A stretch of DNA of 64,000 bases from a bacterium. GTDB taxonomy: Bacteria > Hydrothermota > Tepidihabitantia > Tepidihabitantales > Tepidihabitantaceae. A program made the position numbers and the translations under genes. The DNA lies in assembly GCA_035505375.1 (NCBI GenBank), contig DATJQV010000025.1:1-64000 (forward strand). Reading direction: 5' to 3'. This document shows positions 18,892 through 36,920 of the stretch, one piece after another; within the stretch, counting starts at the first letter, position 1; every line of letters starts with the position of its first letter. The notes beneath the pieces are model-generated. The model was given only the letters and a program-made list of their open reading frames with translations, ran no database searches and was not told the origin of the DNA.

Positions 18892-18919
18892 TTGACCTCA
18901 CTCGCCGGTCGTAGATACT
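18892..18919 (+). promoter_or_regulatory. Promoter of the GT39-TPR gene (leaderless)
   Basis: TTGACC (18892-18897), 16-bp spacer, GATACT (18914-18919). The ATG at 18926 lies 6 bp after the -10 box, so the mRNA should start at the start codon. No ribosome-binding site could be transcribed. Confidence 0.65.
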
Positions 18920-18925
18920 TCTGTG

Positions 18926-21058
18926 ATGTCCGCTAGTCGAAAACCGGCAATCGGCAATCGGCAATCCCCGGTTGTCTGGTTCCTCGTCATCTCCGGGGTC
19001 GCGTTCGCCCTCCGCATCATCCACCTGCTGCAGGCCCGACACAGCGACCCGCTCTTCTTCTCACCTCAGATGGACGCGCTCTATCACCACGAGTGGGCGC
19101 TGGCCATCGCGGCGGGCAAAGAGTTCATCGCCGACGCTTACTTCCGCGCCCCGCTCTATCCCTACCTCCTCGGCATCGTCTACAAGCTCTCCGGCGCAAA
19201 CCAGATGGCGGCGCGAATAGTACAGGCGCTAATCGGCAGCGTCGGCTGCGGGCTCGTGTACATCCTCGCGCGGCAACTGCTCAAGCCGCAGGCCTCGAGC
19301 CCCAAGCCCCAAGCCTCAAGCCGCAAGCCATTGAAGTCCGATCCTCACTCCTCCCTCCTCCCTCTTCCTTCCTCACTCACTCCGACGATCGCCGGTCTTG
19401 TCATGGCTGCCTACCCGCTCGCCATCTGGTACGACGGCGAGTTGCTTCTTGAGGGCACGCTGACTTTCCTTCTCATGCTCGGATTCGTGCTGCTTTACCG
19501 CAGTCGGGACAAGGACCGGCAGTGGTGGCTGCCGGGCATCGTGTTCGGGCTGGCCTCGATTACCCGGCCGAACGTGCTCGCGTTCCTCGCGGTGCTGCCG
19601 GTCTGGCTGTTCGTCGAAGGAAAAGGGTCCAAGGGTCCAAGGGTCCAAGGGTCCAAGTCCGAGACTAGAGCCCTGGAACCCTCGAACCCTGGAACCCGTT
19701 CTACCTGGACCCGGCTCCTGCTCGTCTGGGGTGCGGCGGCGCTGGTCATCCTGCCGGTCACGATTCGCAACTATGTCGTGAGCAGGCAGTTCGTGCCGAT
19801 TGCGTGGCAGGCGGGCACGAACTTCTACATCGGCAACTCGCCGCAGTCGGACGGCACTACTGCCATCCTCCCGGGCACGCGCGGCAGTTGGTGGGGCGGC
19901 TTCGATGACGTCAAGCGGCTGGCAGAGCAGGCTCTGGGGCGGCCGCTCAAGGGCGCGGAGATTGACCGGTACTGGCTGGGTAAGGGTCTTGAGTTCTGGC
20001 GCGAGCAGCCGGGCAAGGCGCTGGGCCTGCTTGCGCGCAAGACCTTCCTCTGGTTCGCGGGCTACGAGGTCGGCAACGAGACCGACCTGTACGCGGTGAA
20101 GCACGACTCATTCATCAACTACCTCCTCTTCAACTCCGGGTTTCTGAAGTTCCCATTCGGCATACTGCTGCCGCTGGCGCTGGCCGGGGTCTGGTTTCGG
20201 CGCAAGGAGTGGCGCCGGTTTCTGCCGCTGTACCTATTTGTCGTGGCGTACTCGCTCTCGTTCATCGTCTTCTTCGTTACCGGCCGATACCGGACGTCGG
20301 TTGTCCCGATTGTCGCGATACTGGCAGCCATAGGACTCATAGGTCTCATACGACCCATACCCGCGAAAACGGGGACTGTGCCGCGCGCCGGGCGCTCCGA
20401 GGGACTGTCCCCGTTTTCGCTCAGGTCTGGCCGCGGCGTCGCGTTCCTGATTTTTCTCGCCGCGTTCTTCCTGCTCAACGCCAACATCGCCGGGGCGGGG
20501 CGCGTGACGCGCCGGGACCAGAGCCACTTCGCGGTCGCGCTCGGACTGCACAACCAGGGCAGGGACGCCGAGGCGCTGGCGGAAGTGCGACAGGCGCTGC
20601 AGGTTGATTCGGAGACCAACGTGCTCTCGTTTGAGGCGTCGCTGCTCGAAAGGCAGGGCGACTTCGTCAACGCCGAGCGCTCGGCCCGGGCCGCGGTGCG
20701 ACTTCATCCGCAGGAATCGGATGCGTACGGTGAACTCGGCAACGTCTTCGCGCACGCCGGCGTGCTCGACTCGGCCGCGCACTACTTCGAAGTGGCGCTC
20801 CAGCACGACCCGTACTCGATGCAGGCATGGATTAACCTCGGCAACGTCAACGTGCAACGCAAGGATTTCGAGAAGGCCCGGTACTACTACGAAGGGGCGC
20901 TAAAGATACGGCCGACCTTCGCGGAGCCGATGTTCTACCTCGGCCTTTGTGACTACTACGAAGGCAAGGTCGCTGAAGCCCACGCCCGCTGGCAGGAAGT
21001 CCTCAAGCTCGACCCGTCTTTCACCAAAGCCAGACAGGCCTTGGAGCAACTGAAGTAA
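18926..21058 (+). CDS. GT39/ArnT-like membrane glycosyltransferase with C-terminal TPRs
   Basis: A 710-residue multi-pass protein. After TM1 (WFLVISGVAFALRIIHLLQA) the first loop has DALYHHEWALAIAAGKEF and YFRAPLYPYLLGIVYKLSG, the acidic/aromatic signature of GT-C (GT39/ArnT/PMT) enzymes that use polyprenyl-phosphate sugars. About ten more helices follow, then roughly four TPR units from residue 530 (LGLHNQGRDAEALAEVRQAL, YGELGNVFAHAGVLDSAAHY). Three low-complexity stretches interrupt it in frame: two short-word tracts in the first half and a palindromic element. ATG 18926 was preferred over the adjoining GTG. The acceptor is unknown; cell-envelope or protein glycosylation is likely. Confidence 0.82.
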   Translation: MSASRKPAIGNRQSPVVWFLVISGVAFALRIIHLLQARHSDPLFFSPQMDALYHHEWALAIAAGKEFIADAYFRAPLYPYLLGIVYKLSGANQMAARIVQALIGSVGCGLVYILARQLLKPQASSPKPQASSRKPLKSDPHSSLLPLPSSLTPTIAGLVMAAYPLAIWYDGELLLEGTLTFLLMLGFVLLYRSRDKDRQWWLPGIVFGLASITRPNVLAFLAVLPVWLFVEGKGSKGPRVQGSKSETRALEPSNPGTRSTWTRLLLVWGAAALVILPVTIRNYVVSRQFVPIAWQAGTNFYIGNSPQSDGTTAILPGTRGSWWGGFDDVKRLAEQALGRPLKGAEIDRYWLGKGLEFWREQPGKALGLLARKTFLWFAGYEVGNETDLYAVKHDSFINYLLFNSGFLKFPFGILLPLALAGVWFRRKEWRRFLPLYLFVVAYSLSFIVFFVTGRYRTSVVPIVAILAAIGLIGLIRPIPAKTGTVPRAGRSEGLSPFSLRSGRGVAFLIFLAAFFLLNANIAGAGRVTRRDQSHFAVALGLHNQGRDAEALAEVRQALQVDSETNVLSFEASLLERQGDFVNAERSARAAVRLHPQESDAYGELGNVFAHAGVLDSAAHYFEVALQHDPYSMQAWINLGNVNVQRKDFEKARYYYEGALKIRPTFAEPMFYLGLCDYYEGKVAEAHARWQEVLKLDPSFTKARQALEQLK
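19281..19382 (+). repeat. In-frame short-word insertion in the GT39 gene
   Basis: Tandem words of the type AAGCCCCAAGCCTCAAGCC, then TCCTCCCTCCTCCCTCTTCC. They encode a Lys/Pro/Ser-rich stretch (KPQASSPKPQASSRKP) between two membrane helices. The composition is unlike the rest of the gene but like intergenic tracts elsewhere in the window. Confidence 0.75.
19622..19700 (+). repeat. In-frame GGGTCCAA word insertion in the GT39 gene
   Basis: Four GGGTCCAA units (19625-19656) followed by an imperfect inverted CCCTGGAACCCTCGAACCC block. It encodes KGSKGPRVQGSKSETRALEP in a cytoplasmic or periplasmic loop and keeps the frame open. Confidence 0.78.
20364..20419 (+). repeat. In-frame palindromic element (CGAAAACGGGGAC family), copy 1
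   Basis: Arms CGAAAACGGGGACTGT (20364-20379) and ACTGTCCCCGTTTTCG (20404-20419) are nearly perfect inverted repeats around a GC-rich centre. The element is 56 bp and is translated as part of PIPAKTGTVPRAGRSEGLSP. Two more members lie in hypD. Confidence 0.88.
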
Positions 21059-34397: not shown

Positions 34398-34628
34398 TCA
34401 GTTGCGTGCCGTGACTCGTTGTGTCTTCTTCCATACCTTGCGCTGCCGACGGATCACGGGCGCTAGAGCCCTCAAGGCCTCGTTGACGGCTGCGCTGTCC
34501 GGGAAGACGTCAATGACATCGTGCCCTACAACAACGACGATGGTACCTTCTGCATGCCGCGCTGCGGTTCTGCCGCGTGAGGCGCCGGAGAAGTCATGTT
34601 CCGGGCGCATGGCCGAAGGCGCTGTCAC
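34398..34628 (-). CDS. Small protein cotranslated with the HEPN gene
   Basis: A 76-residue protein whose start overlaps the HEPN stop by 4 bp (ATGA), which is the main reason to accept it. The middle reads EGTIVVVVGHDVIDVFPDSA and then AVNEALRALAPVIRRQRKV, a strand-turn-helix pattern seen in small antitoxin-like or DUF5678-like proteins; the N-terminal 30 residues are of low complexity. It may be a third component of the nucleotidyltransferase/HEPN module. No function assigned. Confidence 0.5.
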   Translation of the reverse strand: MTAPSAMRPEHDFSGASRGRTAARHAEGTIVVVVGHDVIDVFPDSAAVNEALRALAPVIRRQRKVWKKTQRVTARN

Positions 34629-35020
34629 AACGGCTTCCCGGTTGACGAGGCGAGCATGTTCTGGACGAAGTCTATGAACCGCTGGGCGTTCGCTATCTGC
34701 TCACCCGCGAGGCCGGCGCTGACCTCGACATTGACCTCGTAGTCACCGAGTTGGCGGCATTCCGCCGCATCCAGGAGCATTCGATGGAAGCCCGCAGGGA
34801 CCCGACCGGGCTTCTGAAATCTCTCGCCAAAGGCGGCAATGAGCGCGGAGTGACTGCTGTACTCAAGTCCGTCGCTAAGCAGTAGAGCCTCGACGACGTA
34901 GAACATCGTGTAGTATGCACGTGACGCCGCAAATCCATGGCTCCCTCGGGCATCAATCTCGCGGGCGACGTCCAGACTTTCGCGCGCCTTCGCCAGCAGC
35001 GCCCTCTGCTGTTCGTTCAT
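34625..35020 (-). CDS. HEPN-domain protein (toxin partner of a nucleotidyltransferase)
   Basis: A 131-residue all-helical protein. It starts NEQQRALLAKARESLDVARE, continues GFAASRAYYTMFYVVEALLL, the usual HEPN segment (S/A-x-x-Y-Y-x-M-F-x-x-x-A-L-L), and ends with AGEQIANAQRFIDFVQNML. HEPN proteins paired with MNT nucleotidyltransferases are toxin/antitoxin modules in which the MNT protein commonly inactivates the HEPN RNase by AMPylation. The start overlaps the MNT stop by 4 bp. Confidence 0.88.
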   Translation of the reverse strand: MNEQQRALLAKARESLDVAREIDARGSHGFAASRAYYTMFYVVEALLLSDGLEYSSHSALIAAFGERFQKPGRVPAGFHRMLLDAAECRQLGDYEVNVEVSAGLAGEQIANAQRFIDFVQNMLASSTGKPL

Positions 35021-35358
35021 ACCGCGACGCCCTCCACCCGAGCGTTGCGGAGCAGCGGACTCTGTTCCTGGTCGAAGCGGCGTTCCGACACGTATACGCA
35101 GAGAATCACGACGTTGTGCTCCAGCGACAACTCGGAGGTGATTGGCAGCACGCGACGCCGCTCCTCTTCGACACTGACGTCCCCTCGGAGCACTACCATC
35201 ACGTCTATGTCCGAATCCGCTCGGGCGTCACCGCGTGCCTGAGAACCAAACAGCACAAGCCGGACGAGCCGTTCGCCGTACAGCTCGCCCAGTCTGGCAT
35301 GGAGTTCGGCAAGGACCTGCCTGACTTTGGACGTCATCTCGCAGTCAATGTAACTCAC
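35017..35358 (-). CDS. MNT-type nucleotidyltransferase (antitoxin of the HEPN pair)
   Basis: A 113-residue minimal nucleotidyltransferase. The catalytic signature is VLFGSQARGDARADSDIDVM (about residues 34-53), the classic GSxxxG...DxD motif. ILCVYVSERRFDQEQSPLLR follows at the C-terminus. First gene of a three-gene leftward operon with HEPN and a small third gene, each overlapping by 4 bp. Its role is inferred from known MntA/HepT systems. Confidence 0.9.
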   Translation of the reverse strand: MSYIDCEMTSKVRQVLAELHARLGELYGERLVRLVLFGSQARGDARADSDIDVMVVLRGDVSVEEERRRVLPITSELSLEHNVVILCVYVSERRFDQEQSPLLRNARVEGVAV

Positions 35359-35621: not shown

Positions 35622-36920
35622 GTGAAAGCTGAGCAGCGCAAGGCGACGAGGAAGCTGGACGAGGGCGCGATGGAGCGCGCCTTGCTCGGCAAGGTGAACG
35701 GCCTCGTCGCTGAGTTGTGTAAGACCCGAAAGACAATCAACCTGATGGAAGTCTGCGGCACCCACACGATGGCAATCTCCGGTTTCGGTATCCGTCGCGC
35801 GGTGGACCCGCGGCTGCGTTTGCTTTCCGGGCCGGGCTGCCCGGTCTGCGTTACCGCGCAGGAGGAGATCGACGCGGCAATAGACATCGCCCGGGGGGGC
35901 TTGGGACACAATTCGGCGAAAACGGGGACAGTCCCTCGGAGCGCGAGGACGCGCGGTACAGTCCCCGTTTTCGAGTCATGTCCCGCGCCGGGTCCGGCCG
36001 TTGTGACCTTCGGCGACATGATGCGCGTGCCGGGCACGCTGACTTCGCTGGAGCGGGAGAAGGCAAAAGGCGCGGACGTGCGGGTCGTATATTCGGCGCT
36101 GGATGCCCTGCGCTTGGCCGAAGAAGCGCCGGACCGGCAGTTCGTGTTTCTCGGGGTGGGGTTCGAGACAACCGCGCCCACCGTGGCGGCGACGGTGCTG
36201 GCGGCGCAGGAATCCAAGGTCTCAAACTTCTTCGTGCTCCCTATGTTCAAGACTATCCCGCCGGCGCTGGAAGCGATTGCGTCCTCGGACCGAGTGAATG
36301 TGGACGGGTTCATCCTGCCCGGCCACGTCTCTACCATTATCGGCACGCGACCGTACGAGTTCCTCCGGGACAAGTACCATCTGCCGAGTTGCGTGGTCGG
36401 GTTCGAGGCGCTCGACGTGCTGCAGGGAATTTACATGCTGCTCAGGCGGATGCATGATGACTTGGGCGAAAACAGGGACAGTCCCCGACCGCGAGGACGC
36501 GGCCGCAATCCGGTACAGTCCCTGTTTTCGGGTCATGACCAGCGCCCGAAGGTGGAAAACCAGTATATGCGAAGCGTGAAGCCCGAGGGCAACGCGAAGG
36601 CTCGGCAGGTGATGGACACTGTCTTCGAGCCCTGTGACGCTGTGTGGCGGGGTATCGGCGCGATTCCCGGCTCCGGTCTCGCGTTTCGCAAGGACTACGC
36701 CGCATTCGATGCTCGGAGTCGTTTCCACGTCCGCAATCGTCAATCGTCAATCGTAAATCGTAAATCAGGGTGTCGGTGCGGGGACGTGATGCTCGGCGTC
36801 ATTGTCCCGCCGGAGTGCAAACTGTTCGCCAAGGCGTGCACGCCCGAATCGCCGGTCGGGCCGTGCATGGTGTCGACTGAGGGAGCATGCGCAGCGTACT
36901 ACAAATATGAACGAGCGTAG
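35622..36920 (+). CDS. hypD: Hydrogenase maturation protein HypD with three in-frame insertions
   Basis: Iron-sulfur scaffold that with HypC assembles the Fe(CN)2CO unit of [NiFe] hydrogenases. At 432 residues it is about 60 longer than usual. Conserved motifs are intact: LMEVCGTHTMAISGFGIR, LLSGPGCPVC, VTFGDMMRVPGT, ADVRVVYSALDAL, GVGFETTAPT, LPGHVSTIIG, KVENQY and CMVSTEGACAAYYKY. Extra sequence appears at about 98-118 and 281-304 (both palindromic elements) and about 366-382 (CAATCGT words), none of which corresponds to HypD elsewhere. GTG is the start; the promoter is 6 bp upstream. hypE follows after 6 bp. No hydrogenase or hypABCF is present in the window. Confidence 0.93.
   Translation: MKAEQRKATRKLDEGAMERALLGKVNGLVAELCKTRKTINLMEVCGTHTMAISGFGIRRAVDPRLRLLSGPGCPVCVTAQEEIDAAIDIARGGLGHNSAKTGTVPRSARTRGTVPVFESCPAPGPAVVTFGDMMRVPGTLTSLEREKAKGADVRVVYSALDALRLAEEAPDRQFVFLGVGFETTAPTVAATVLAAQESKVSNFFVLPMFKTIPPALEAIASSDRVNVDGFILPGHVSTIIGTRPYEFLRDKYHLPSCVVGFEALDVLQGIYMLLRRMHDDLGENRDSPRPRGRGRNPVQSLFSGHDQRPKVENQYMRSVKPEGNAKARQVMDTVFEPCDAVWRGIGAIPGSGLAFRKDYAAFDARSRFHVRNRQSSIVNRKSGCRCGDVMLGVIVPPECKLFAKACTPESPVGPCMVSTEGACAAYYKYERA
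35917..35973 (+). repeat. In-frame palindromic element in hypD, copy 2
   Basis: Arms CGAAAACGGGGACAGT (35917-35932) and ACAGTCCCCGTTTTCG (35958-35973), pairing over 15 of 16 positions around a GC-rich loop; 57 bp, equal to 19 codons. It lies between the conserved GPGCPVC and TFGDMMRVPG blocks of HypD and adds roughly 20-30 residues there. Confidence 0.92.
36467..36530 (+). repeat. In-frame palindromic element in hypD, copy 3
   Basis: Arms CGAAAACAGGGACAGT (36467-36482) and ACAGTCCCTGTTTTCG (36515-36530). Compared with copy 2, G24-C has become A-T in both arms, a compensatory change. It sits just before the conserved KVENQY motif, where E. coli HypD has only a few residues. Confidence 0.92.
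36728..36763 (+). repeat. In-frame CAATCGT word tract in hypD
   Basis: CAATCGTCAATCGTCAATCG followed by TAAATCGTAAATC, encoding NRQSSIVNRKS just before the conserved CxCGDVMLG segment. The same words occur in intergenic DNA near 4060 and 38010 and at the start of the GT39 gene (GGCAATCGGCAATCGGCAAT). Confidence 0.85.

Follow-up and report, generated by a model that had tools for sequence, protein, structure and literature searches.

The hypD locus

The window analysed here is a stretch of 64,000 nucleotides from a candidate division WOR-3 genome, and it contains a hypD gene enlarged by two palindromic inserts (Table 1). The encoded protein matches PF01924 in three stretches and TIGR00075 with an E value of 8e-124. 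The solved HypD structure 2z1d likewise aligns in three blocks and breaks at the inserts, whose junction peptides lie around GGLGHNSAK and GTVPVFESCPAPGPAVVTFGDMMR. The gene is followed by an open hypE-like reading frame (start 36927). The nearest HypD relatives in named genomes are those of candidate division WOR-3 MAGs, and no close relative was found among the plasmid HypD matches. Elsewhere in the window, at 34625-35358 on the minus strand, adjoining HEPN-like and small nucleotidyltransferase-like reading frames may, to judge from their sequences, represent a HepT/MntA pair.

Table 1. Positions of hypD, its inserts and related palindromes in the window
Feature	Position	Strand	Remarks
hypD	35622..36920	+	432 codons with a GTG start; present once in the genome; two in-frame inserts, otherwise intact
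Family B palindrome, TTGGGACACAATTC ... GTCATGTCCC	35901..35984	+	84 bp; copy 1 nested in its loop
Family A copy 1 (reported element)	35917..35973	+	in hypD; encodes (A)KTGTVPRSARTRGTVPVF
Copy 2 with probable flanking family B remnants (CTTGGG ... GGTCATG)	36461..36537	+	from sequence comparison
Family A copy 2	36467..36530	+	in frame in hypD; encodes ENRDSPRPRGRGRNPVQSLFS
Short tandem repeat (CAATCGT/AAATCGT) coding RNRQSSIVNRKS	36740..36775	+	in hypD; unrelated to family A
Family A copy 3	20364..20419	-	in frame in ORF 18896-21055 (+)

The initial annotation described a palindrome of 57 bp in hypD (copy 1) with 16-bp inverted arms, adding about 20 residues and leaving the HypD motifs and the frame intact. 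The palindrome was confirmed: as single-stranded DNA it folds at -22.1 kcal/mol, compared with -10.3 +/- 2.0 kcal/mol for shuffled sequences (z -5.8). It lies between CPVC...DIA and VVTFGDMMRVPG with the frame kept over its full length, and the conserved motifs, including the Cys motifs, are all present. The arms CGAAAACGGGGAC / GTCCCCGTTTTCG are not a perfect 16-bp pair; 13 perfect base pairs are followed by an A.A mismatch and two further pairs (15 of 16). HypD of four congeners has neither insert, as expected of a recent insertion, and compared with these proteins site 1 is longer by about 30 residues and site 2 by 28. The former value exceeds the proposed 20 because copy 1 lies within a second palindrome. 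Neither conservation of the segment in HypD of distant phyla nor an absence of other copies of the arms, either of which had been named as grounds for rejecting the insertion, was found.

A pattern scan of the window found two two-armed copies besides copy 1 (copies 2 and 3), which the initial annotation had overlooked together with the nesting in family B. Both arms of copy 2 are altered in concert (CAGGGAC/GTCCCTG), and copy 3 lies between the mannosyltransferase-like and TPR regions of its host reading frame. In the AlphaFold model of HypD the core is mostly above pLDDT 90, the segments below 50 are residues 96-103, 113-120 and 290-306, and both inserts are predicted to be disordered loops. 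A tandem repeat similar to that in Table 1 occupies the same HypD loop of one congener (G005).

Abundance and structure of the two families

Family A (arms AAAAYGGGGACAGTCCC...GGTACAGTCCCCRTTTT) is represented by at least 52 copies catalogued in the WOR-3 genome, a lower bound because these 52 distinct copies were drawn from genome stretches around matches. Genome-wide, near-matches to GGGGACAGTCCC with at most one mismatch number 85 + 95 compared with 4 + 6 for the reversed pattern, and this abundance is not due to chance. A strict two-armed pattern recovers 42 copies in the same genome and none for the reversed control; the search for other copies of the arms that the initial annotation called for thus came out in its favour. 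Each of the six genomes of the genus has strict copies (42, 45, 20, 30, 9 and 1); counting these six, the pattern occurs in 7 of the 147 phylum genomes searched, where the reversed control gave 0. Outside the genus the pattern occurs in 1 of 141 phylum genomes, as a single copy in another genus of the same family.

The core of the element consists of AAAAY-GGGGACAGTCCC, an inner stem that is variable in sequence and length, and GGTACAGTCCCC-RTTTT. The whole is an inverted doublet that forms one hairpin, as REPINs do. In the 51-nt class (41 distinct copies), the top mutual-information pairs (22-35, 21-36 and 20-37) share one helix register, and pairing is kept across C-G, T-A, G-C and A-T changes. 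The bases flanking the A/T arms are also complementary, in 49, 42, 26 and 25 of 52 copies at distances 1-4, and approach background from distance 6. These flanks vary by copy (CG|CG, GG|CC, CC|GG and TG|CA among copy 1 and 51 others) and may reflect palindromic targets or form part of the element. A short form of 37-38 bp precedes a C-terminal sorting-type segment (LFLPKMGTVPSGTVPTFGPSLLDISGRKVLDL) in three proteins (L012, L022 and L162) and was possibly duplicated together with that segment.

Family B, whose arms may also be written TTGGGACAYRATTC...GTCATGTCCC, is present in all congeners; its left arm has 48 genome sites within one mismatch (controls 0-1). Its loop usually holds a short, variable, nearly perfect hairpin, and at several loci family A fills the loop. 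Such nesting of A in B occurs at L308, L317, L322 and L169 in addition to hypD, where the composite is the likely inserted unit. Among copies with strongly coding flanks, family B is in frame in 10 cases and out of frame on the same strand in 1, and it encodes peptides such as RDMTELSDNSDRVP.

Placement within genes

Frames were called by codon usage, using a model trained on the window. In 28 of the 52 family A copies the best frame is identical to the left and right of the element and no stop intervenes; about half of the copies are not demonstrably in frame in a gene. Where same-strand flanks are strongly coding, 20 of 22 copies are in frame and 2 are out of frame, against an expectation of 1/3 (binomial p 3e-8, a value that ignores the relatedness of copies, whose counts are not fully independent). 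Random window positions fall within one frame more often (68%). Genes are therefore not preferred, and what distinguishes the element is that the frame is kept within them. An argument from length modulo 3 was set aside, since it leaned too heavily on clonal copies and on the choice of ends.

More than ten conserved enzymes are hosts. According to Pfam matches, copies lie within conserved domains, or between such domains, in HypD, an LplA-type ligase, a MiaB-like enzyme, a fumarase-type lyase, TruA, MnmA, a DEAD helicase, MnmG, an amidohydrolase, a phosphoribosyltransferase, an alcohol dehydrogenase, TrmFO and HsdM. The frame in which the element is read differs among hosts (KTGTVP, ENGDSP and RKRGQS). 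On average 5.5 of the six frames of family A are open, compared with 4.0 for genomic segments, and this openness is largely intrinsic to the element because the value is also high (5.3) for copies without a demonstrated in-frame position in a gene.

Sites compared among congeners

Corresponding sites in the genus are empty, occupied or partly occupied. A complete copy in MnmG is found in none of five congeners; G003 has the left arm only (KNGDSP), which represents a copy that is partial or has decayed, and two congeners have a different insert at the family A loop. No complete copy occupies the corresponding fumarase or TrmFO site in congeners. TruA has family A in this genome and family B in three congeners, and MnmA has a second A-type copy in common with G003 and an A-in-B composite that is not shared. 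A different repeat occupies the same TrmFO loop in three congeners, and one congener has none. The patterns in MnmG, TrmFO, TruA and MnmA therefore indicate insertions of different ages and loops reused by different repeats.

The other occupants of these loops have features of their own. In TrmFO of G003, G004 and G005 (L276, L284 and L280) an in-frame tandem-type repeat of CAGATTACGCAGATTACGCAGAT, coding HPQITQITQ, takes the place filled by family A in the present genome. The insert in MnmG of G002 and G004 (L269 and L270) is FGVRAAPGCRLSGKAGASLPHSK, which has its own GC-rich hairpin, and a similar sequence flanks a family A copy in L010.

Comparison with empty sites in fumarase and MnmG revealed no target-site signature and a net gain in length that differs from the length of the element. 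Plain insertion with target duplication is not supported, since the gains differ from the element and no direct repeat is seen.

Y1 transposases and their termini

The initial annotation found no transposase in the window and suggested a search of the genome, which does contain five Y1 (RAYT-like) transposase genes, four of them intact. The best NCBIfam match of the four is the REP-associated tyrosine transposase, at 65-72 bits, below the curated cut-off of 80. The fifth gene, at L033:1380-1830, is broken by a TAG codon, and its left end is tandemly duplicated (GGGGATTTCGGGGACACAATACTT twice).

Y1 genes in the genus carry inverted ends that are AT-rich with a GGGGAC-type motif. Of the intact Y1 units of the genus that were examined, 22 of 22 have the sequence [AG]GGGAC within 100 bp upstream, and 16 of the 22 also have the inverted downstream end; both ends occur at 0.4% of random positions. 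The end types are GGGGACACTTCCC-like, GGGGACGCTACCC, GGGGACACAATA and GGGACAG[TC]CAC. Two of these outnumber the units in several congeners, as expected of dispersed TIRs, although the count in the present genome is close to its control. TIR-bounded relatives of RAYTs, the TIRYTs or TIRtrons, have the TIR consensus GGGGWSAS according to the account in PMC3733652. The family A arm GGGGACAG fits this consensus, as do the unit ends GGGGACAC/GGGGACAG, and GGGGACGC is off by one base. The exact arm GGGGACAGTCCC is absent from Y1 unit ends in the genus contigs examined, the nearest being AGGGACAGTCACCC at L031. Kinship with the TIRYT TIR families is claimed, and not membership, because no unit has the exact family A arm. 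GGGGAC is a short motif, and its sharing is weak evidence for common recognition.

Origin of the insertions

The segment in hypD is best explained, with a probability of about 0.72, as a non-autonomous TIR-dimer element that is maintained as a hairpin and presumably mobilised by Y1 enzymes. In it, two inverted terminal repeats of the GGGGACAG type would enclose an inner hairpin of variable sequence, and the element would have entered a surface loop of HypD in frame, within a family B copy. RAYT/TIRYT-type Y1 (HUH tyrosine) transposases would work on the hairpin in its single-stranded form, copying or moving the element. Few stops in any frame, together with sites in variable loops, would allow in-frame copies in genes to survive while frame-shifting copies are purged. 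The host protein would then contain a disordered loop some 28-30 residues long, and the inserted peptide in HypD is presumably translated and tolerated. A wider proposal, which is possible but less likely than not, is that palindromes driven by TIRYT/RAYT enzymes constitute "gene-safe" mobile DNA in this genus: nested, nearly stop-free in six frames, with a hairpin kept by covariation, and colonising protein loops genome-wide.

Spread without a transposase, through replication slippage, template switching or hairpin gene conversion, would make the GGGGAC likeness a coincidence or a sign that Y1 ends had been captured. The missing exact arm is in keeping with this, and the A-in-B nesting, the complementary variable flanks and the non-matching length changes could all be products of template switching. 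The copies, however, are dispersed singly at unrelated loci whose congener sites are empty, upstream ends of one kind accompany all the intact Y1 genes examined in the genus, and the association of RAYTs with REPs is well supported elsewhere (PMC2817692, PMC3116915). Spread of this kind is thus rather unlikely.

That hypD is decaying and tolerates inserts since HypD is no longer needed could account for two large inserts and a tandem repeat in one gene, but is very improbable. The reading frame is full-length, the cysteines are conserved and the adjoining hypE-like frame is open. The dN/dS of this hypD relative to congeners is 0.15, the same as for congener pairs, and HypD is under ordinary purifying selection. 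The same elements moreover occupy the MnmG, TruA and fumarase genes, which are hard to dispense with. It is also most improbable that the insert is a domesticated segment, such as a regulatory hairpin or a binding loop, under selection in HypD. A strong hairpin could affect the mRNA, but congeners do without the insert and many unrelated proteins contain the same element in differing frames. An Rfam search of the hypD region gave no match, and a terminator scan gave no coding-strand match for either hypD insert and one weak opposite-strand match at copy 2. An assembly or binning artefact, conceivable for a draft genome of 90 contigs with 4.7% estimated contamination, can hardly be credited when the family occurs at different sites in six genomes of the genus with reading frames open.

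Relation to known elements

The work on Rickettsia left open by which route palindromes enter genes in frame, and the account of the Rickettsia palindromic elements (RPEs) in PMC2229807 names no mobilising enzyme. The present genus offers empty, full and decayed sites, that is, insertions of different ages, and two nested families. Its resident Y1 transposases share a terminal GGGGAC motif, so that the link between RAYTs and protein-coding palindromes is directly testable. It also shows that, in a candidate phylum, selfish DNA has repeatedly enlarged the loops of enzymes. If true, the "gene-safe" reading would supply a transposase partner for protein-coding palindromes that have so far been without one.

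RPEs (Ogata 2000; reviewed in PMC2229807), to which related elements exist in Wolbachia, are short palindromes with several families per genome that lie in frame in conserved protein genes, are tolerated and are open in several frames. Family A shares these properties, being an in-frame, protein-coding palindromic repeat of conserved genes. It differs in length (about 52-62 bp compared with 105-146 bp), in having its own arms and a plausible transposase partner, and in its host, a candidate division WOR-3 bacterium with a 3.6-Mb genome. The likeness to RPEs proposed in the initial annotation is thus one of behaviour, and family A is best read as behaving like RPEs rather than classed among them.

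The proposed link to REP palindromes stands as far as the relation to RAYTs is concerned, but is better drawn to the TIRYT/TIRtron branch than to GTAG-type REPs. REPINs are inverted doublets of short repeats with a spacer that form one hairpin, and their maintenance is attributed to RAYT-type transposases (PMC3116915). In P. fluorescens they are almost wholly extragenic and built from REPs headed by GTGG or GTAG (PMC3116915), whereas no GTAG-type head was seen in family A arms and 28 of 52 copies are in frame in coding sequence. The TIR families in the account of PMC3733652 resemble the present system more closely: inverted TIRs bound Y1 RAYT-like genes, as they do in this genome, their motif is GGGGWSAS (in the present case GGGGACAG, GGGGACAC and close variants), and TIRs are dispersed as dimers, with several types per genome. 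Unlike those families, which are described as moderately abundant, the genus has at least two abundant families of nested dimers that often lie in frame and whose inner hairpin varies, and the dispersed arm is not (near-)identical to the TIR of a resident unit (AGGGACAGTCACCC compared with GGGGACAGTCCC). Intragenic in-frame REPs of other repeat classes are known, and the same account, whose section on TIR families describes none inside genes, reports GTAG/CGTC REPs of O. terrae, R. conorii and others that are in frame, also occur as dimers, are sometimes found twice per gene and include tRNA pseudouridine synthase genes among their hosts. Family A belongs to a different repeat class, and its insertion is seen against empty sites in congeners.
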